Source: a virus. Taken from it: a stretch of DNA of 30,276 bases. This document shows, one piece after another, positions 5,440-30,276 of this stretch. Numbering within the stretch: position 1 is the stretch's first letter; each line of letters opens with the position of its first letter. The notes below the pieces were generated by a model. The model was given only the letters and a program-made list of their open reading frames with translations. It had not been told where the DNA came from and ran no database searches. The position numbers and the translations under genes are program-made. Where the stretch lies: IMG/VR virus record IMGVR_UViG_3300027140_000013, positions 1 to 30,276 of that record. The stretch is one strand, 5' to 3'.

Positions 5440-7599
5440 TTAGCCACCGATCTCGCTGAAATTAATTCCAGAACGAGCAGCAACGAAGTTAAGAGTAATA
5501 AAGTTAATTGAACGTGCTGGCTTGATAAAGATATCAGCAACGAATTCGTTACGGTCAATAACTTCGCCAGTATTGTTAGAGTCATCACACTTAACAACGA
5601 AGTCAGTAATACCACGACGACCTTGAACGTCACGTAGGAATGGTTCAACTAAGTTCTTAAACTGAGCACGAGTGAATCCATCGTTGAATTCAAACAACTG
5701 ATACTTAGCAGCAGTTGCAATGGCTTTCTCAAGAACAATAAACAGACGACGCACGTTAATGCGATCGAATGCAGATGGCTTAGCCAATAATGTCTTATCG
5801 CCAAACAATACAGTACCATCTCCTGGGAAAGTAACAACTGGGTTTACGCCATTCTTGTATAGGTTGTCACGATCTGTTTTGTCTAAACTAATTGCTAGCT
5901 TAACTACGTTCTTAACTTGACCACGATTCAAACCACCTGGAGACCACCATGCATCGTTAGTGTAGTCAGTACGTGCGCACAATCCAGCGATATCGCCGTT
6001 TAGTGGAACATAACGATACTTGTCGTTGTAACGATCATATTGATACTTATAGCCAGAATCTAAAGCTGCATAAGAAGTAGTTGTCAATGCATTGCGATAT
6101 GCAATGATTTTAGTTACGGCAGTTCCTTGGCTATTTGCGCTAGTGATGATAGAACCATCAGTATCTTCTGGAGAGAAGAATGCCATACAATCTCTTCTAG
6201 TTTCTACAATATCAATGATAGCATTGGCAACCGCAACAGAACATTTACCTGCTGGAATTAATGAGATGTCATAAGTTGCATCATCAGAGAAAATAGTCCA
6301 TGCAGTGATACGTTGACCATCAGTTGCAGTGAAATCATCAAGACCACCTGATAGAGAACGAGTTACAGATGCAGAGTTAGCGAATGATGTTCCTGCTACA
6401 TCATTACCCCAGTTAGTTCCAGTAGCTGGATGATCCATCCACCAGATATACTGTGAGCGAGAATTGATTACGTCTTTGTAGTAGTTATTAGTTCCGTCAA
6501 ATTTCTTTGCGTCACCAGCTTTTGAAACATAAGAATATTTTTCTAGAATAGTTCCTGGAACACCAGTCCACAAACCATCCTCATCGATAACGATTAAATG
6601 TAGTTCATCATTTGAACCACCTACGCTTGCTGCAGCATCAGAAGTTCCTGGAGCTGTATCAAATTCATCTTTGTATGCCCATGTAGAAAAACTTGATGCG
6701 TCAGCTAAAGAAACTAATAAAGAGTTACCCAATGTTCCTGGATATTTTGCAGCGAATTCGCCAACAACACCAGCACCATTTACAAAAGATGTTAGGTAAT
6801 CGTTTTCGTTATTAATTTTAACGCCACCAGTTGCAACAACTGCAGTTCCAGAAGCACCAGTACCACCGCCACCAGTTAGTGTAACTGTTGGAGCAGAAGT
6901 ATATCCAGATCCGCCATTGGTAACTGTAATGCTAGCAACTGTTGTACTAGAAAGAGTGATCGCACCAGCAGTTGCGCCAGTACCAGTACCAGTAATAACT
7001 GCAGTTGGAGCAGTTGTATAACCAGATCCACCGCTAGTGATTGTGATGCCAGTAACAGCACCATCAGTAACTTGAACAGTACCAGTCGCAGCAGTACCAC
7101 CAGCTGGAGCAGTGAAAGTTATAGTAGGTGTTCCAGTGTAACCAGTACCACCAGCAGAAACTGCAGCGGAAGTAATAGAACTACCAGCCATATTGGCTAC
7201 TGCAGTGGCTTGCACACCACCAGCAATTTGTGGTGCGCTAAGTGTTACAACTGGAGCAGAAGTATAACCTGATCCAGCAGCACTTCTGGTAATTGCAGTT
7301 ACAGTACCAGATGGACTAGAAACAGCATTACGGTGATTGATTGTATCAACACGAACGACCAATAAATTGTTTGTATATGATAAGAAGTTTGCTGCTGTGA
7401 AAAAAGATGCTGCACTATCGGCAACAGGTTTTCCGAAACGACGAACAAGTTCGGTTTCAGATGAAATGGTTACAGGTTGAAGAACTGGACCCCACTGGAA
7501 CACTCCAGCAAAAGCACCAGCAGAAGTCGAAACTGCTGGTACAATAGAGGTAAAGTCTTTTTCTACAACTGCAACGCCAGGACTAAGTTGAAAAGGCAT
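5440..7599 (-). CDS. 18: Tail sheath protein gp18 with inserted Gly-Tyr-Thr repeats
   Basis: This 719-residue sheath subunit contracts around the tube to drive it through the host envelope. The N-terminus (LSPGVAVVEKDFTSIVP, then GAFAGVFQWGP) and the C-terminal quarter (FPGDGTVLFGDKTL, RRLFIVLEKAI, FVADIFIKPARSINFITLNF) are typical of T4-like sheaths. Between them, residues about 108-262 hold four tandem units of roughly 40 residues with a core G-S/T-G-Y-T-x-x-P-T, rich in Gly, Ala and Thr. These probably form a surface domain on the sheath and are absent from T4 gp18. The start follows AAGGAG. An AATAAATA box lies 63 bases upstream in the longest leader of the core block. Confidence 0.96.
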   Translation of the reverse strand: MPFQLSPGVAVVEKDFTSIVPAVSTSAGAFAGVFQWGPVLQPVTISSETELVRRFGKPVADSAASFFTAANFLSYTNNLLVVRVDTINHRNAVSSPSGTVTAITRSAAGSGYTSAPVVTLSAPQIAGGVQATAVANMAGSSITSAAVSAGGTGYTGTPTITFTAPAGGTAATGTVQVTDGAVTGITITSGGSGYTTAPTAVITGTGTGATAGAITLSSTTVASITVTNGGSGYTSAPTVTLTGGGGTGASGTAVVATGGVKINNENDYLTSFVNGAGVVGEFAAKYPGTLGNSLLVSLADASSFSTWAYKDEFDTAPGTSDAAASVGGSNDELHLIVIDEDGLWTGVPGTILEKYSYVSKAGDAKKFDGTNNYYKDVINSRSQYIWWMDHPATGTNWGNDVAGTSFANSASVTRSLSGGLDDFTATDGQRITAWTIFSDDATYDISLIPAGKCSVAVANAIIDIVETRRDCMAFFSPEDTDGSIITSANSQGTAVTKIIAYRNALTTTSYAALDSGYKYQYDRYNDKYRYVPLNGDIAGLCARTDYTNDAWWSPGGLNRGQVKNVVKLAISLDKTDRDNLYKNGVNPVVTFPGDGTVLFGDKTLLAKPSAFDRINVRRLFIVLEKAIATAAKYQLFEFNDGFTRAQFKNLVEPFLRDVQGRRGITDFVVKCDDSNNTGEVIDRNEFVADIFIKPARSINFITLNFVAARSGINFSEIGG
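6814..7278 (-). repeat. Four Gly-Tyr-Thr repeats in the sheath gene
   Basis: Four units of about 40 codons, with GYT cores at residues 111, 153, 193 and 232, carry the pattern GSGYT-x-APTVT followed by a Gly/Thr/Ala-rich turn. The neck protein gene (10119-10337) has two related units. The nucleotide repeats are imperfect, so the similarity is mainly at protein level. Confidence 0.85.
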
Positions 7600-23750: not shown

Positions 23751-24365
23751 ATGGAAACAACCCAAAACACCCCCGAAATTCAAGTCAATAAACTGGTAAC
23801 AGAATCTTTCGCAAAAGAATTATTCTCAACACAATTTCGGAGTTTTGACATAAATCCCACAATGATGGATGATTTGACCTTTAGCGATCAAGATTTTATT
23901 GACTTGGTCAATTCATGCTCAACAAATGTAACTACAGATTTAATGTTCACAGAAGATAACAAATATGTAGAAAAACTCAAAGAGATTGTCTATACTATTT
24001 GCCAAGATCTTCCAGAATTTAACAATGAGATGCAATATACACCTGTTATTATTGGATCCAATGCTCTATTCCAACAAAAATTAGAACACATTCCACTACA
24101 TTGTTACGAACACGTTCCTTTGGTATTTACGTTTGTTCTGCACACTGGCGAATATACACCACCAACATATTTCGCCGATCCTCGTGGTGGCGTAACTACA
24201 ACACGTCAATTGGCTGCACAGAATTTGGTTGCAACTTCATTTCAAATCAAAGGTAGATTTGGAGAAGTTTATGTAACTCCTGGACATTTGATGCGTTATA
24301 CAGAAACTAATCTAGACACCCAATCTTATGTCACTTTAAATATTAAGGTTGGTTTCGGACGTTAA
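23751..24365 (+). CDS. Unknown protein, possibly a 2OG-Fe(II) oxygenase-like fold without its iron ligands
   Basis: The layout of this 204-residue protein recalls small phage proteins annotated as 2-oxoglutarate/Fe(II) oxygenases. A helical N-terminal half is followed by a strand region LEHIPLHCYEHVPLVFTFVL, then a YFADPRGG turn, and near the end VYVTPGHLMRYTETN before a closing VTLNIKVGF strand. In true members a His-x-Asp pair and a distal His hold the iron. Here the distal position appears as Arg-Tyr-Thr-Glu-Thr and no clear pair is visible, so I doubt activity. It is the only plus-strand gene, with its own TATAAATA promoter, and it overlaps the end of the convergent PP-loop gene by 23 bases. 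A wholly different fold is possible. Confidence 0.8.
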   Translation: METTQNTPEIQVNKLVTESFAKELFSTQFRSFDINPTMMDDLTFSDQDFIDLVNSCSTNVTTDLMFTEDNKYVEKLKEIVYTICQDLPEFNNEMQYTPVIIGSNALFQQKLEHIPLHCYEHVPLVFTFVLHTGEYTPPTYFADPRGGVTTTRQLAAQNLVATSFQIKGRFGEVYVTPGHLMRYTETNLDTQSYVTLNIKVGFGR

Positions 24366-25422
24366 TTCTAGTTTGGTTTACAAAAGATGTGGGTGGTAAC
24401 TTAATCACACTATAATCTTCCAATAGAAGTAGCCATGTCGGATCGGGGTTTCCTAAATTGGAAACCCCTTTTGGTTTTTGCCAAGCATAATGGCTATCGC
24501 CACTCCACTCCTCGATTAACTCCCTCATAACCCAACGATGAGTCAATGGGTTTCCAACTTCTTTAGTGAATGGTTCTTTAGTTGTAATCACATAACGCTG
24601 AAAGTCGTCTGTATTAAAGAAGTGAAATTGATTGTCTTGCTGACTTGTACTAACTCTTGTTGCAAACTCAGCAGTATACCAATCCAAGTTAAAAATAAAC
24701 CACCAACGTAAATCTCTTAAGGTTTCAATTTTCTTTGGACTAGCATTAATGCATGGTAACATAAACTCATGCAATTCTGGATCGATGTACTTCGTATAGT
24801 CGTCCAATGGATCTGGTCCATTAAATTGATGATGAAAAAAGGATATGTTTGTTTTTACTGCAGGATTAACTGAGAAATTATCAGTTGGTCCAAATAGCTG
24901 ATTACCAAAGAACCCAGTAACAAATATCTCATTTTCTGAACAATCATCAAAATCTCTATTCGAAGAAACTTTAATTTTTAAATCTACACCTTTAGGGATA
25001 ATTCTTTTCTCTAAAAAATCCCCAGACTCTAGTATGGAAGTATATGTTCCATAAACAGCAATTTGTTTTGGATCGTTGGCAAAATGCAGTAACGCACAGA
25101 GAACTAAAGTGCTATCAATACCTCCACTCCAAACGACATTTATACGTTTACCCAATGATAAAAGTTGTTTACATCGTTCTTCTACACATTGAGCAAATGA
25201 CTTGTTAAAACCCTCTACACTCGGTATTTGCAATAGTCCAGGTTTAATGTTTAGGTAATGTGGAATAGATCCTGTTCTATCATAAACATTATTAAGATTC
25301 ATTTTATGTTTGTCATAAAAATAAAATAAATCTCTGTCTAAAAGATAACCATCTAAAATCTCAGGTTGCTGGTCAACAACTTGTTTAACGAATCCAACAT
25401 TGTAAAATAAAATTTGCTTCAT
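24343..25422 (-). CDS. Asparagine-synthetase-like PP-loop protein without glutaminase domain
   Basis: This 359-residue protein carries the ATP-pyrophosphatase PP-loop SGGIDST (residues 99-105) in VVWSGGIDSTLVLCALL. Further in, FVTGFFGNQLFG (167-178) stands in the place of the SGxGxDExFGG loop of asparagine synthetases. Enzymes of this family adenylate a carboxylate and pass it to an amine; relatives include AsnB and the lasso-peptide cyclases. The N-terminus starts MKQILFY, lacking the Cys2 nucleophile and glutaminase domain of AsnB, so ammonia from glutamine is not the obvious donor. A Trp-rich segment RWWFIFNLDW lies near residue 240. It is last in the island, after a terminator, with a TCTAAATA box upstream. 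Its substrate is unknown; a protein or peptide is my inference. Confidence 0.8.
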   Translation of the reverse strand: MKQILFYNVGFVKQVVDQQPEILDGYLLDRDLFYFYDKHKMNLNNVYDRTGSIPHYLNIKPGLLQIPSVEGFNKSFAQCVEERCKQLLSLGKRINVVWSGGIDSTLVLCALLHFANDPKQIAVYGTYTSILESGDFLEKRIIPKGVDLKIKVSSNRDFDDCSENEIFVTGFFGNQLFGPTDNFSVNPAVKTNISFFHHQFNGPDPLDDYTKYIDPELHEFMLPCINASPKKIETLRDLRWWFIFNLDWYTAEFATRVSTSQQDNQFHFFNTDDFQRYVITTKEPFTKEVGNPLTHRWVMRELIEEWSGDSHYAWQKPKGVSNLGNPDPTWLLLLEDYSVIKLPPTSFVNQTRINVRNQP

Positions 25423-25435
25423 ATAATCCCCAAAT

Positions 25436-25463
25436 GAAAAAGGGGATGCCTAAACATCCCCTT
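25436..25463 (-). terminator. Intrinsic terminator after the TRAP-binding-protein gene
   Basis: AGGGGATG and CATCCCCT make a perfect 8-base-pair GC-rich stem with a six-base loop. On the minus strand it is followed by TTTTTC, as expected for Rho-independent termination of the message coming from the TRAP-binding-protein gene. A TCTAAATA box lies just upstream, so the hairpin could also sit at the 5' end of the next message. Confidence 0.75.
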
Positions 25464-25484: not shown

Positions 25485-26432
25485 TTACTGTAGCTTGATT
25501 TTTTCTACTAGACCTGGAGTAAAGTAGTCAGCGTACATGTCATATACTTTAGCAGTAACTTGTTTAAATTTCTGTTCTTCTTTCTCAGACATCTTAACAA
25601 CCTTAACACCTTTTGCTTCGCACTCTGCAAGGATGTTTGGAATGTCAGCAACAGACTCACGACGCTCTTTACGTGCTGCATTAAATGCTGCAGTAGAGAT
25701 AATCTCTTTAGTTTCTGCGTCGAACTGAGCCATCCAGTCTTTATTAACGATAATAGAAGTTAAGAACAAGCTATGAGCAGTGTCGTTAACATACTTAAAT
25801 GCTTCGTTTTGCTGTAATGGGAAAATACGAACGTAAGTTGATTCACCTGCGTTAATAACACCCTCTTTAGCAGCTGAATTCATTTGCTCAAGTTCGATAC
25901 CTGGATAAGTGTTTGCACCAAGTAACTTGAAAGTATCGATTGCAACTGGAGAACGGCTAGTACGAACTTTCTTAAACTTCCATGCGTCTACGCTGTCAGC
26001 TTTAAAGTTTGCTGGAACAACACGATAACCACCAGAGTAAGTGAAAGACATAGCGTGAATGTTAGAATTCTTGCTTACATCAGCCAATAGTTGAGTTCCA
26101 ATTTCACCTTCTAAAACTGCGTCAGCGTGATCGTGGTCACGGAACAAGAATGGTAGATCTAATGCGTTTAGATCTTTGTTGTAGTCTGCCAACCAAGTAG
26201 TGTAAATGTGGCTCATTTCGATAGTGCCATCATTAATCATCTGCATTAAATCGTTCTTGCTAATTTTCTTGCCAGCGTTATATTTCTCAGCATAAGCAGT
26301 TAGAGAAAGAACTTCGATATCAAATTGACCATTAGTTTTCTCATTAACTTCTTTAGCGAACGACTCAGCTACCTTAAGAAATAGCCCGATTGGCTCGTGG
26401 GCGATAACCCATTTTACGTGCTTTTTACTCAT
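25485..26432 (-). CDS. TRAP transporter solute-binding protein (DctP family) without signal peptide
   Basis: This 315-residue protein covers the whole mature part of a TRAP-type (DctP/SiaP-like) substrate-binding protein. It shows VKWVIAHEPIGLFLKVAESF at the start (the family's KFAH...HxxxxxAxxFA strand-helix), LDLPFLFRDHDHADAVLEG (91-109) and FTYSGGYRVVP (130-140). The binding strand WKFKKVRTSRSPVAIDTFKL (151-170) is followed by LGANTYP and AAKEGVINAGE (187-197). Arg157 or Arg160 is the likely carboxylate-binding arginine of this family. Normal members are exported; here the mature domain starts at residue 5 with no signal peptide or lipobox, so the protein should stay in the cytoplasm or enter the virion. 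The ribosome site AAGGAG is strong. Membrane partners (DctQ/DctM) are not encoded here. Confidence 0.9.
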   Translation of the reverse strand: MSKKHVKWVIAHEPIGLFLKVAESFAKEVNEKTNGQFDIEVLSLTAYAEKYNAGKKISKNDLMQMINDGTIEMSHIYTTWLADYNKDLNALDLPFLFRDHDHADAVLEGEIGTQLLADVSKNSNIHAMSFTYSGGYRVVPANFKADSVDAWKFKKVRTSRSPVAIDTFKLLGANTYPGIELEQMNSAAKEGVINAGESTYVRIFPLQQNEAFKYVNDTAHSLFLTSIIVNKDWMAQFDAETKEIISTAAFNAARKERRESVADIPNILAECEAKGVKVVKMSEKEEQKFKQVTAKVYDMYADYFTPGLVEKIKLQ

Positions 26433-26445
26433 TTTTTGGTTCTCC

Positions 26446-26760
26446 TTACCTTTTAAGGTATTGTAAAAATTTTGCTTTGAATAGGTCTACCGACCAAGTC
26501 TCTATACCATTATTTATAGAATTCAGTATTACTGGAATCTTGTTATCAATAATCTGCTCTTTGTATTTATAAACAAATTGCAGTTGTTCTGGTGTTGCAA
26601 TTAGTTCAAATTCAGGAATTTGAATATTTACATTATTATTCTGGTATTCCTTGGTGTCTGAACAGTAATGGAAGATATTGGCTATTGTGTAGCCATTTCT
26701 ATATCTTCCATATCTTGGGAATTTATTCAGTTCCCAAATCATACAATCAAGAAACGCCAT
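26446..26760 (-). CDS. Small unknown protein between the radical SAM and TRAP-binding genes
   Basis: I do not recognise this 104-residue protein. It is rich in Asn, Ile, Tyr and Phe. It begins MAFLDCMIWELNKFPRYG and holds an aromatic, basic segment (YGRYRNGYTIANIFHY) and a closing basic helix with KAKFLQYLKR. It has two cysteines (Cys6 and Cys33) but no clear zinc site, no signal peptide and no membrane segment. Its ATG overlaps the stop codon of the radical SAM gene (TAATG), which suggests translational coupling. It could therefore be a helper for substrate binding, although it does not obviously look like the winged-helix recognition domain found in peptide-modifying systems. Confidence 0.75.
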   Translation of the reverse strand: MAFLDCMIWELNKFPRYGRYRNGYTIANIFHYCSDTKEYQNNNVNIQIPEFELIATPEQLQFVYKYKEQIIDNKIPVILNSINNGIETWSVDLFKAKFLQYLKR

Positions 26761-28232
26761 TATACTACTGGCATTGCTGGAACAGTAACCACAGGAATGT
26801 TCAGAGGTTTACGAACTTTCCATGATTTTTGAGTTCCGCTAGATTTGACGAAATTAATATCAATAACATCAAGTGTTTTAACATCATTAAATCTAATCTT
26901 ATCTCCTTCAATTCTCGTCAAAACTAATCCATCAGTCATAATGAATAGAGCACCTGCAAGAATAGCAAGATTATAATAGAATAAATTCTCACACGCTTGA
27001 GTCCAGTACTGATCTTCTAAGAATAAACAAGCACCCTGACACAGTTGAACTACTGGACAACTAGGACACTCTGCTCTGGTCGACCAGTGATAAGAATTGG
27101 TCAAACGAATATTATCAAAATCTTCAATATTACCAAGATTATGTTTAGTCAATGAAGAGGTGTTTTGGCAAGTAGTAACATTACCTTTCATATCGATGGC
27201 AATATTATCTTCTTTGTCCATACCGCACTTTTGACCAACTACTTCTGCTGGTCTCTGATAAACTAACGATTCAAAAAATCCAGTAATCTTTGTATTGACT
27301 GTCCAGCTAAACTGGTTTTGTCCTTGAATAGTTTCCCAGAATAAATTGTGTAGAATTTCTTTCTTCTCGTCTGGGGTTTGCAAAGAATGCGCCATTCCAG
27401 AATCATCATACGGTAACATTAATTCTTCAGTTGTAACTTGCAGTTCCATCTGAGAAATTTCAGTATATTCATATCCAAAATCTTTTCTGTTTAACTTGTC
27501 GCAAATAAAATCTCGAACAGCTGGTATTGATACATTCTCACGTGTCAATACACAGTTAAATGTAAATCTTCCCTGTCCCATAGTTTTTAATGCATATACT
27601 ACAGCATCTTTTGCTCTTGGTTCATCAAGTGGATCTGGTCCACGATTTTGAGCATGTAATGGTCCATCATGCGACATACCGATTGAAAATCCCATTCGAT
27701 TAAACCAATCAATCTTTTCTCTATCCAATAAAGAACCATTGGTTACCATCATAAACTGTGCATTGGGATAAACTTTTCTAACCTTTTCAGCTAAAGGTTT
27801 TAGGGTCTTCCAATATACCATTGGTTCACCACCCCAAAATTCAAGACGGAATCTATCATAAGTTCCGAACTGAAAATTTTCTTTCATTTTTCGAACTAGA
27901 TCTTCTGCGTCATCTGGTCCGCCTACTGGATCATGAGGTTGATGTGCTTGATTGCAGTAAGAGCAAGCATAATTACACTTAAGACCCATAGTAATCTTAA
28001 GTGTTGTTGGTTTTCTGGATTTTCTTCCGTGGAGTTCTGGATCGTGAGGGTTTGTTACTTTGGCAGGAGTCCAAACTTTTGCATTAATTTGGTACTCCAA
28101 ACCATTAGAAATGTGGCTCAGCGATGGTTTTTCTTTTGTTTCTTCCCAAAACATCTCAGATGTCATTGGGTCATAAACTAAAACCTGCTCAACATCATTG
28201 GCTCCTTTAAGAACCAGCTTATATAAACTCAT
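26760..28232 (-). CDS. Radical SAM/SPASM enzyme, probable peptide or protein maturase
   Basis: This 490-residue enzyme has all the key features of the family. The SAM-cluster motif CxxxCxxC is Cys86, Cys90, Cys93 in GLKCNYACSYC, and GGEP lies at 134-137. A C-terminal SPASM domain shows Cys336 and Cys355, then the classic C-x2-C-x5-C-x3-C (Cys389, 392, 398, 402) and a distal Cys414. This can hold two further iron-sulphur clusters, as in sulphatase-maturing enzymes and sactipeptide or ranthipeptide synthases. About 75 residues precede the core and about 75 follow SPASM; either may bind a substrate. A CATAAATA promoter lies 33 bases upstream. The Cys-Asn repeat protein two genes upstream is the best candidate substrate (inference). 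A sulphatase is not present nearby. Confidence 0.93.
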   Translation of the reverse strand: MSLYKLVLKGANDVEQVLVYDPMTSEMFWEETKEKPSLSHISNGLEYQINAKVWTPAKVTNPHDPELHGRKSRKPTTLKITMGLKCNYACSYCNQAHQPHDPVGGPDDAEDLVRKMKENFQFGTYDRFRLEFWGGEPMVYWKTLKPLAEKVRKVYPNAQFMMVTNGSLLDREKIDWFNRMGFSIGMSHDGPLHAQNRGPDPLDEPRAKDAVVYALKTMGQGRFTFNCVLTRENVSIPAVRDFICDKLNRKDFGYEYTEISQMELQVTTEELMLPYDDSGMAHSLQTPDEKKEILHNLFWETIQGQNQFSWTVNTKITGFFESLVYQRPAEVVGQKCGMDKEDNIAIDMKGNVTTCQNTSSLTKHNLGNIEDFDNIRLTNSYHWSTRAECPSCPVVQLCQGACLFLEDQYWTQACENLFYYNLAILAGALFIMTDGLVLTRIEGDKIRFNDVKTLDVIDINFVKSSGTQKSWKVRKPLNIPVVTVPAMPVV

Positions 28233-28264
28233 TGTAAATCCTTATAATCTATTAATAACAAATG

Positions 28265-28272
28265 TATTTATG
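28265..28272 (-). promoter_or_regulatory. Late promoter box before the radical SAM gene
   Basis: The minus strand reads CATAAATA, 33 bases before the radical SAM start, in a 44-base gap. It would start a transcript covering the radical SAM gene, the 104-residue gene and the TRAP-binding-protein gene, ending at the hairpin at 25436-25463. Confidence 0.6.
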
Positions 28273-28276
28273 GTAA

Positions 28277-29386
28277 TTAAATTAGTTCAATCCAAAGTTC
28301 TGAATAAGAATAGAAATCGCCAGCATTTAATTTTAATTTAATGAAGTCACCAGAAACTAAACCATTGGTAGATATTCTTACCGTATCAACACCATTTAAT
28401 GTAAGGTTTGAACCAGTTTTATCGTGTTGATCTTTATAAGCAATAATATTCTGATTGGTTTCTTCACCAGCAGCAAAGCGATCTTTATCGTAACCACCAG
28501 CTACTAATCTGGATTTGTTTGGAACACCATTAATGCATGTTATATCAAATGATATAGGAAGAGTTTTATCTGTATAAAATGTTCCGAATGCAGCTCTTAC
28601 AGTATAATAATCTGCTACTGGTAGATTAACTTTAAAGCGATTACCACCATTATTTGGTTGTAAAGGGTTAGCTGGATCATACGCACCAGGAGTTACTGTC
28701 ATTGGATATGTTGTAGCAGCTTTAGCTTCTTCTTTTGTATATGGTAAATTAGTAGAAATAATTTTTCCATTAGCATCCAAAAGTTCATAGTGAACAGCTG
28801 TATGTAAATTATAATATGTCCAAGATGTCGCACCAGCCTGATCTGTAGTTTCAGCTGAAGTTAAATCGCCTGTAAGAATAGTATCATTAATAGCTAATCC
28901 TTGCTCATCGACATAAACAGTCATTACTGACGCATCAAAATCTTGTGATGTTTTATAAAAATTATCGATGGTAAATAATGGAATTAAATTATTATTGTAA
29001 CGACGTTTAATAATTTTAGGAATTTCTCTATGAGTAAAACTTCCAGAAATAAAATTCTTAGTATAGTCTAAAGCATTGAATGGTCCAATAATTTCATTTT
29101 TTGTTACATCGTAATCAACTACCCAACGAATTGCTTCTTTAGTCTTAGGAAAATCTGCTGATGTGAAAGTTCTCTCTAATAAAGTCTCAAAATTAGCTTC
29201 CGTATGATTAATTCTAAGATCAATAGATTCAGTTGTTGGGACTTCTGGTAATACAATTTTCTCAACCAATACAGTAATTTCTTTATTCGCTGCGTTATAA
29301 CCCATAGTAGTTCTAACAGAAGTATTGATACCAATATCTTCAGAACCATCGATTCCAGTTACAGGAATTTTAAATAATTTATACAT
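28277..29386 (-). CDS. Unknown protein following the Cys-Asn repeat gene, possible virion adhesin part
   Basis: I do not recognise this 369-residue protein. It opens MYKLFKIPVTGIDGSEDIGI and is rich in Thr, Asn, Asp, Ile and Tyr, with many alternating strand patterns that suggest an all-beta fold. A stretch PGAYDPANPLQPNNGGNRFK (about 233-252) is Pro/Asn-rich and probably a loop. The C-terminus reads ISTNGLVSGDFIKLKLNAGD and ends in a Tyr/Trp-rich strand. It has a single cysteine (in DITCING), no signal peptide and no membrane segment. The gene begins 12 bases after the Cys-Asn repeat gene, with a ribosome site that overlaps that gene's stop codon, so the two products are probably made together. 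Confidence 0.8.
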   Translation of the reverse strand: MYKLFKIPVTGIDGSEDIGINTSVRTTMGYNAANKEITVLVEKIVLPEVPTTESIDLRINHTEANFETLLERTFTSADFPKTKEAIRWVVDYDVTKNEIIGPFNALDYTKNFISGSFTHREIPKIIKRRYNNNLIPLFTIDNFYKTSQDFDASVMTVYVDEQGLAINDTILTGDLTSAETTDQAGATSWTYYNLHTAVHYELLDANGKIISTNLPYTKEEAKAATTYPMTVTPGAYDPANPLQPNNGGNRFKVNLPVADYYTVRAAFGTFYTDKTLPISFDITCINGVPNKSRLVAGGYDKDRFAAGEETNQNIIAYKDQHDKTGSNLTLNGVDTVRISTNGLVSGDFIKLKLNAGDFYSYSELWIELI

Positions 29387-29397
29387 GTTTTTAATCC

Positions 29398-29766
29398 TTA
29401 GCAGTTACAGTTACAAGCACAGTTACAGTTACATGCGCAGTTACAGTTACAGTTTACACGCAAATATTTGAAATGACCCATTGACTGTTCTTGTGAGTCG
29501 TGACGAAGACCATCGTTGTATGAAGTGTTACGGAAGACGTTTAGTCTCCAGTCAGTAACGTGTACGTTAAACGCTAAATCGGCAGCGTCGCAGTTACCGC
29601 AGTTACAGTTACATGCTGAGTTACATGCGTTACATGCGCATGCCCAACCGCAGTTACCGTTACTATCGTTTACACCACGATTTCCTGTATCGCCCTGCCA
29701 TGTCCAAAACAAACCATTAAGGTCTGTTCCATTTGAAATTTTAAATCCTGTTGCACTTACTGGCAT
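29398..29766 (-). CDS. Cys-Asn repeat protein, candidate substrate of the radical SAM enzyme
   Basis: This 122-residue protein has 17 cysteines. Residues 1-38 form an ordinary N-terminal part (SATGFKISNGTDLNGLFWTW) of the kind seen in small phage structural proteins. Block one (39-59) holds eight Cys in spaced CxC and CxxC patterns (CACNACNS, ACNCNCGNC). A middle domain (60-104, VHVTDWRLNVFRN and GHFKYLRVN) has none. Block two (105-122) is strictly alternating: NCNCNCACNCNCACNCNC, nine Cys ending at the last residue. A GGAG ribosome site precedes the start, one base after the S74 fibre stop. Cys-Asn repeats with a nearby SPASM enzyme suggest thioether cross-linking. Metal or disulphide binding is the main alternative. 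I know of no described family with this exact layout. Confidence 0.9.
   Translation of the reverse strand: MPVSATGFKISNGTDLNGLFWTWQGDTGNRGVNDSNGNCGWACACNACNSACNCNCGNCDAADLAFNVHVTDWRLNVFRNTSYNDGLRHDSQEQSMGHFKYLRVNCNCNCACNCNCACNCNC
29401..29454 (-). repeat. Tandem Cys-Asn codon repeat, C-terminal block
   Basis: Three 18-base units, each encoding Asn-Cys-Asn-Cys-Asn/x-Cys with an Ala step, make an almost exact run of TGTAAC hexamers ending at the stop codon. Such a run can change in length by replication slippage. Confidence 0.9.
29590..29652 (-). repeat. Internal cysteine block of the Cys-Asn protein
   Basis: The 21 codons for residues 39-59 hold eight cysteines separated by Asn, Ala, Ser, Gly and Trp. 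At DNA level it shares the TGTAAC and TGTAACGCA units of the C-terminal block, so the two blocks may derive from one another. Confidence 0.75.
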
Positions 29767-29767
29767 A

Positions 29768-30276
29768 TTATTTCTCCAAGTTCTCTAGACGAGTAGTTAA
29801 TTCTTTAATTGTTTTTTGTTGTTCTTTGATAGCCTCAACCAATAGACCAACCATATTACCGTAGGCGATGGTTTTATAACCAGACATATCCTCACCAACA
29901 ACTTGAGGGATAACCTGCTCAACTTCTTGAGCAATTAACCCCAGTTCCGCTTTACCACCCTTAATATAGGCTACTCCACGCAAACTATTAACAATATCTA
30001 CAGCATTATTTAGGGTTTTAATATCTTCTTTTAGTCTTTGGTCTGAAGTTGTATTAACTTCAGTTGCATAAATGGCTTGGAAAGTATTACTTCCTGCAAA
30101 TACGTTATTTGCTGATAATTTTGCGATACCTGCACCAACTGAGATTGTTGGATTTCCAGCTACACCATCGCCATCTGCAACAACTATTTCTCCAGCTACA
30201 CCAGCAATACTTCTAGCAGCAGCTGATCCGTTTGCAGTTCTAGCATATATTCCGTTAGTTGTAATACCAGCGATAG
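29768..30276 (-). CDS. Tail fibre with S74 self-cleaving domain, C-terminal part
   Basis: The reading frame is open to the right edge of the window, so only about the last 168 residues are seen. The visible part has Gly/Ala/Asn-rich fibre sequence (ARTANGSAAARSIAGVAG, GNPTISVGAGIAKLSANN). A peptidase S74 domain follows: SDQRLK gives the catalytic Ser (codon at 30044-30046) and Lys, then GLIAQEVEQVIPQVVGED and a C-terminal coiled coil ending LTTRLENLEK. By family knowledge, the domain assists trimer folding and releases itself between Ser and Asp. The domain is related to, but clearly diverged from, that of the fibre at 11672-13447. Its stop is one base before the Cys-Asn repeat gene. Confidence 0.88.
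   Translation of the reverse strand, partial: IAGITTNGIYARTANGSAAARSIAGVAGEIVVADGDGVAGNPTISVGAGIAKLSANNVFAGSNTFQAIYATEVNTTSDQRLKEDIKTLNNAVDIVNSLRGVAYIKGGKAELGLIAQEVEQVIPQVVGEDMSGYKTIAYGNMVGLLVEAIKEQQKTIKELTTRLENLEK

Follow-up and report, generated by a model that had tools for sequence, protein, structure and literature searches.

The closest described systems to the one considered here are the ranthipeptide/SCIFF maturases (CteB/ScfB, PapB), in which a radical S-adenosylmethionine (SAM) enzyme with a seven-cysteine SPASM domain has a cysteine-rich substrate encoded nearby. The same arrangement was found in a window of 30,276 bases, the whole stretch of viral DNA that was analysed (IMG/VR record IMGVR_UViG_3300027140_000013), where one minus-strand gene run encodes a radical SAM/SPASM enzyme and a 122-residue protein ending in an alternating cysteine-asparagine (Cys-Asn) run. 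Unlike in the known maturases, the enzyme is phage-encoded, the presumed substrate is the C-terminus of a tail fibre and not a short leader-core peptide, and the enzyme has no N-terminal RiPP recognition element (RRE; RiPP, ribosomally synthesized and post-translationally modified peptide). Among NCBIfam models PapB matched the phage enzyme best, yet with only 65 bits against a cutoff of 340; the SCIFF maturase model reached 47 of 425 bits, and the model of QhpD, the quinohemoprotein amine dehydrogenase maturase, 56 bits against a cutoff of 453. QhpD is a cellular SPASM enzyme that cross-links a cysteine-rich subunit of a protein complex, not a secreted peptide, and no repeated Cys-Asn run is known to be involved. 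Anaerobic sulfatase-maturing enzymes (anSME) share the SPASM fold, but the phage family lacks their catalytic aspartate position and their eighth SPASM cysteine. The polytheonamide-type enzyme PoyD is alike in modifying a peptide regularly at every second residue, whereas epimerases of this type carry the radical SAM cluster only plus a donor cysteine (PMC8326336), neither of which fits the phage enzyme. Phage fibres with C-terminal self-processing parts (Hint, S74) offer a further comparison, as a Hint domain lies directly behind the Cys-Asn run in phages JWF and 2-1 and an S74 fibre adjoins the window's Cys-Asn gene; Hint domains occur at a minority of Cys-Asn fibre loci and may merely expose the tip.

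We propose, with a probability of roughly 0.63, that these genes form a phage virion-maturation system in which the radical SAM/SPASM enzyme cross-links the C-terminal Cys-Asn run of the phage's own fibre, most likely through thioethers.

Pairing of the enzyme with a C-terminal Cys-Asn tail

A preliminary description of this DNA had reported a complete SPASM-type enzyme with CxxxCxxC, GGEP and C-x2-C-x5-C-x3-C motifs in the same minus-strand run as a 122-residue protein with 17 cysteines in two blocks, one of them alternating, and both the motifs and the counts proved exact. The enzyme contains CNYACSYC (residues 86-93), GGEP (134-137) and the SPASM cysteines C336, C355, C389, C392, C398, C402 and C414, with exact C-x2-C-x5-C-x3-C spacing. 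The SPASM superfamily pattern, C-x9-15-G-x4-C ... C-x2-C-x5-C-x3-C ... C plus CxxxCxxC, is complete and conserved: across 51 enzymes sharing less than 85% identity, nine of the ten cluster cysteines (C86, C90, C93, C336, C355, C389, C392, C398 and C402) are invariant and C414 is present in 50. Profile searches matched Pfam Radical_SAM (2.9e-10), PHROG 1802 (9e-64) and the NCBIfam SPASM domain (36.6 bits against a cutoff of 27).

For the 122-residue protein, Pfam, PHROGs and NCBIfam gave no significant match and a tblastn search against phages with the low-complexity filter on returned none; the AlphaFold model of the protein is uninformative (pLDDT 45, pTM 0.26). Its cysteines fall into two groups, a block at residues 36-60 and, at residues 105-122, the strictly alternating tail. 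Twenty homologues (55-96% identical) keep the tail although its synonymous sites are saturated, which argues that the tail is not a product of chance: in the window's group, the proportions of synonymous (pS) and nonsynonymous (pN) differences in tail codons are 0.90 and 0.05, giving a pN/pS of 0.058, compared with 0.377 for the remainder of the protein. The first cysteine block is intermediate (0.162), and a four-residue piece of it is missing in some relatives. In 98 non-redundant tail proteins, runs span 3 to 11 units, and the partner residue before each cysteine is Asn in 400, Ala in 73 and Asp in 46 of 551 cases (73% Asn; 94% for the three together). The last cysteine is the exact C-terminus in 49 of the 91 non-redundant tails that lack a Hint domain and lies at most nine residues away in 89. 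The recurring unit is the C-terminal (Cys-Asn)n tail and not the 122-residue protein of the window. The data show the position of the run, the selection on it and the integrity of the enzyme.

Departures from the common layout were also observed. Tyr-Cys or Gln-Cys units appear in variant tails (YCSYCSYCTC, CQGCQTCQ) at loci L244 (2775-3818), L187 and L132, which widens the substrate pattern. Three consecutive small proteins, mostly of about 90-120 residues and all with a terminal Cys-Asn run, precede a single enzyme at L091, L106, L113, L145 and L162, and three records (G002, G010 and G015; loci L061, L104 and L120) hold triple arrays of phrog_1802-type enzymes together with a 67-73-residue protein ending like FYDDYSTACNCNCNCNC.

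Co-occurrence was examined from the tail and from the enzyme. For the tail, IMG/VR DNA was scanned for NCNCNCNC codons, blind to the enzyme, yielding at least 120 matching stretches; a tail was called C-terminal if the run lay within 20 residues of the open reading frame (ORF) end, as at no fewer than 91 loci. The following counts all hold among the matches listed. A window-type enzyme on the same strand (phmmer E < 1e-20) was present in the fetched stretch at 68 of the 91 tail loci and at 52 of the 55 for which at least 4 kb of downstream sequence was available. Searching whole records added 16 (E < 1e-29), bringing the enzyme to 84 of 91 tail records; such searches are unspecific at the default cutoff, with matches in 14 of 14 control genomes, and the count is therefore restricted to strong matches of nearly full length. 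The seven tail records without the enzyme are short fragments, most with the tail gene at the contig end. At the 29 pattern loci without a C-terminal tail, the enzyme was found at only two, both with another domain behind the run. At the other 27, radical SAM matches were weak and generic at best, with none of comparable score; the exceptions among them are a few records (L058, L133) whose run is a tail with additional sequence behind it.

For the enzyme, distant IMG/VR homologues (L014-L022; 34-37% identity) were picked by protein sequence only. Wherever upstream sequence was available, they all have a tail of the Cys-Asn or Cys-Ala type; L018 is truncated. Scanning bacterial genomes contributed 80 enzyme loci. 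From 90 non-redundant enzymes, 81 loci had at least 3 kb upstream and 73 of these carry a tail (44 of 45 viral, 29 of 36 genomic), while none of 2320 opposite-strand ORFs, used as a control, ends in such a tail. In the sole viral exception (L060) the tail protein lies downstream of the enzyme. Because tails served in part to collect the viral loci, it is the figures for genomic loci and for distant homologues that are unbiased. One bacterial family was covered by 351 genomes, of which six contain the enzyme (E < 1e-60) and 15 the tail pattern. Only four of the pattern matches lie at a genuine fibre C-terminus, in one case with a Hint domain behind it; all four are in enzyme genomes and adjoin the enzyme. 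The remaining 11 pattern genomes mostly hold AACTGC-type repeats outside fibre genes, and none has the pattern at a fibre C-terminus. The fifth enzyme genome carries a variant tail, NCDCNCNCNC; the sixth has no tail and resembles a Variovorax singleton (L242). No enzyme was found in a plasmid search.

These data show that the genetic pairing of the enzyme with a Cys-Asn tail is a general rule. The pairing proposed from the window alone recurs at almost every testable locus, and the co-occurrence check suggested with it did not find the enzyme occurring mostly without a Cys-Asn protein. In a tree of 87 enzymes, tails are spread across all main branches and the tail-less loci L186, L189 and L234 form a well-supported nested group. 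Two of these (L186, Sulfuritalea; L189, Sulfuricella) lie beside ABC exporter/HlyD-like genes or a large RTX-like protein, and together with the nested position this suggests a later move to other substrates.

Tail fibres and Hint domains

Most tail-bearing bodies are tail-fibre proteins encoded within the tail gene cluster. The bodies match PHROG tail fibres as well as collagen repeats in 9 of 75, carbohydrate-binding modules in 4, Hint domains in 4 and the N-terminus of the major tropism determinant in 1. At loci whose enzymes are 66-86% identical, the bodies can lack any detectable similarity and still both carry tails, which identifies the tail as the constant part. A virion location of the substrate is thereby strongly implied, in good agreement with the early suggestion that it is a virion part; for the 122-residue window protein the assignment follows from gene position, while homology to tail fibres holds for the family. 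No virion proteomics was found in the literature searched, including that on the JWF-related phage Lumi.

A Hint domain beginning CFPAGT directly follows the run in Achromobacter phages JWF and 2-1, in several alphaproteobacterial prophages and in Burkholderia paludis; in the JWF fibre, the predicted C-terminal peptide around YLVKPRQNCNCDCNCNCSC would end before this domain. Given its placement immediately behind the run, self-cleavage would presumably make the run the mature, newly exposed C-terminus. Such domains are present at a minority of loci, and the window has none. Intein-like Hint domains right behind a run were seen in fibres of L047 (9760-11211), L048 (3685-5127), L191, L193, L194, L197, L214, L253 and L267. 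Lumi, Seuss and KS9, three relatives of JWF that lack the enzyme, also lack a Cys-Asn run in the region read.

Chemistry and alternative explanations

In the proposed system the substrate is a tail-fibre or tail-tip protein whose C-terminal residues alternate between Cys and Asn (in some cases Ala or Asp); the enzyme would act on this run and most likely link cysteine sulfur to carbons of the adjacent Asn, Asp or Ala. The outcome would be a stiff tip for host contact that resists redox conditions and proteases. The AlphaFold model of the enzyme is confident (pLDDT 91), and its best PDB folds are CteB (5why/5wgg), followed by anSME, TigE, ChlB and SuiB, with EpeE also among the structural neighbours. 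By alignment the enzyme has seven SPASM cysteines, as CteB does, whereas anSME has eight. Sactisynthases and ranthisynthases keep a cluster site open for a substrate cysteine, while SuiB, PqqE and anSME do not (PMC8326336), and PapB tolerates zero to six residues between the cysteine and its acceptor, the extremes incompletely (PMC9413430). Taken together, the seven-cysteine pattern, the CteB fold, the open-site comparison and the spacing range of PapB favour thioether formation, short of proof.

Several points count against this interpretation. The fold similarity to CteB is moderate (template modelling score 0.55) and spans enzymes of other chemistries, and the invariant D339 might act as an eighth ligand that fills the open cluster site. 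The N-terminus has no winged-helix RRE, its first 60 residues being modelled with high confidence as three strands and coil with no helices, and no leader peptide is evident in the substrates, in contrast to most SPASM RiPP systems. The adjacent Cys-Asn spacing is tighter than the CX3D native to PapA. A cellular clade (L186, L189, L234) and three singles (L228, L242, L285) have the enzyme with no recognised Cys-Asn tail nearby.

The enzyme could instead act on the run through another radical reaction, such as alternating epimerisation as by PoyD or EpeE, C-C linkage or something else, leaving the cysteines free or in disulfides. We consider this unlikely, though the every-second-residue pattern recalls the 1,3 epimerisation pattern of PoyD (PMC8326336) and both EpeE and SuiB are structural neighbours. 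RiPP epimerases require a conserved non-cluster donor cysteine for hydrogen (PMC8326336), yet the only invariant cysteines of the phage enzyme are the ten cluster ligands. By sequence and by fold, the thioether formers CteB and PapB, as well as anSME, rank above EpeE, and the invariant residue of the run is the cysteine and not its partner.

Somewhat more doubtful is a tip built by metal, Fe-S or disulfide bonding, with cysteines on one strand face of a trimeric fibre (compare the HxH iron sites of phage spikes), and an enzyme directed at another target such as the Ig (immunoglobulin)-like accessory protein. CxC repeats are suited to metal binding in general, and an Ig-like family accompanies the enzyme at 64 of the 90 non-redundant loci, in many of them lying between the tail gene and the enzyme. 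However, this accessory was not found in about 30% of loci whereas the tail is present in nearly all, and bodies and accessories vary while tail and enzyme remain together. Metal binding would also leave the preference for Asn as the partner residue unexplained.

A viperin-like antiviral or sulfatase-maturing role for the enzyme, in an accidental neighbourhood, is very improbable. The JWF copy is annotated as a sulfatase maturase and PADLOC pVip models match the enzyme core, but the pVip match is limited to about 115-150 residues of that radical core. In anSME a catalytic aspartate stands next to a SPASM cysteine; in the phage family this position is a glutamine (Q356, 50 of 51) and the extra anSME cysteine is missing. 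With the co-occurrence of enzyme and tail contradicting an accidental neighbourhood, both readings were rejected. Perfect AACTGC microsatellites do exist in bacterial genomes, but they come without the enzyme and are not fibre C-termini, whereas genuine tails use mixed codons (pS 0.9 against pN 0.05) and are linked to the enzyme, and the idea that tails are functionless low-complexity hexanucleotide repeats was rejected as having next to no chance of being correct.

Neighbouring genes and implications

The window is a T4-like myophage structural module with scaffold, portal, sheath, terminase, head-closure, baseplate and fibre genes, whose sheath has its nearest relatives in Pelagibacter, Methylophilales and DLP_6-type phages. 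This sheath (5440-7599) is enlarged to 719 residues, with apparently inserted domains shared with other virion proteins. The minus-strand run at the right end (Table 1) reads, in gene order, S74-chaperone fibre, Cys-Asn protein, 369-residue protein and enzyme, with one gene separating the presumed substrate from the enzyme, and continues with a 104-residue protein, a TRAP (tripartite ATP-independent periplasmic)-type solute-binding protein and a PP-loop protein. Promoter and terminator scans of the window gave counts close to shuffled expectation, and an Rfam search of the window returned no element.

Table 1. Positions of the enzyme, the Cys-Asn protein and adjoining features in the window
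Feature	Position	Strand	Basis or remark
Cys-Asn tail protein, 122 residues, 17 Cys, presumed substrate/tail-tip part	29398..29766	-	ORF, homologue comparison
C-terminal tail NCNCNCACNCNCACNCNC, residues 105-122	29401..29454	-	pN/pS 0.058
First Cys block NGNCGWACACNACNSACNCNCGNCD, residues 36-60	29587..29661	-	pN/pS 0.162
Radical SAM/SPASM enzyme, 490 residues, PHROG 1802 family	26760..28232	-	Profile matches, conservation, predicted structure
CxxxCxxC radical SAM cluster motif, residues 86-93	27954..27977	-	Invariant in 51/51 non-redundant enzymes
SPASM region, seven Cys, residues 336-414	26991..27227	-	Six invariant (51/51), C414 50/51; aligned with CteB and anSME
369-residue protein between substrate and enzyme, probable Ig-like accessory relative	28277..29386	-	Weak match
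104-residue protein directly downstream of enzyme	26446..26760	-	Only in the window's group, 6 loci
2OG (2-oxoglutarate)-Fe(II) oxygenase, possible second tip-modifying enzyme	23751..24365	+	PHROG 81
PP-loop ATPase, asparagine-synthetase-like	24343..25422	-	Profile match; near enzyme in 7 non-redundant loci
S74-chaperone end of a tail fibre, truncated at window edge	29768..30274	-	Profile matches; stop codon adjoins Cys-Asn gene start
Terminator-like hairpin after gene run, weak	25440..25463	-	Such sites about as many as shuffled expectation
TRAP-type solute-binding protein (DctP)	25485..26432	-	Profile match, E 1e-43

The match of the 369-residue protein to the Ig-like accessory family (E 1e-4) covers its last 38 residues, and in Pfam that family shows nothing beyond a single weak Ig-like (Big_1) match. 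This accessory probably presents the tip or belongs to it. Of the 90 non-redundant loci, 38 have a 2OG-Fe(II) oxygenase close to the enzyme; in the window it is on the opposite strand. This oxygenase probably hydroxylates the same tip. A PP-loop homologue adjoins the enzyme in L016 (7598-8605) and is near it in L075, L088, L122 and L243. In L014 (3134-4654), two genes that look fatty-acid-desaturase-like by eye stand between the fibre region and the enzyme and possibly provide further oxidative tailoring. The DctP-like protein, encoded inside a phage structural gene run, has no evident signal peptide and is kept in at least five non-redundant relatives. At slightly better than even odds, we see here a widespread viral machinery in which the enzyme, often with an oxygenase and an Ig-like helper, makes poly-thioether tips on unrelated fibres, sometimes after Hint cleavage.

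The enzyme superfamily is known, and within the literature searched the viral pairing with C-terminal fibre runs is new at the system level; no description of an enzyme-tail virion-maturation pairing was found in that literature, where preprints and subscription journals were poorly covered. The gene pair is present in the cultured Achromobacter phage JWF and in prophages of cultured bacteria, and prophages with the enzyme gene include those of Thalassobacter stenotrophicus CECT 5294 and a Limnohabitans strain. If the proposed cross-linking is correct, it would explain a PHROG family with no assigned role and put on offer a leaderless, tag-like route to enzymatic cross-linking of whole proteins through a C-terminal Cys-Asn run. 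Phages would then finish a virion part by radical-enzyme chemistry, and the host-contact tip of many alpha- and betaproteobacterial phages would differ from the polypeptide predicted from its gene, with a bearing on fibre engineering and host-range prediction.

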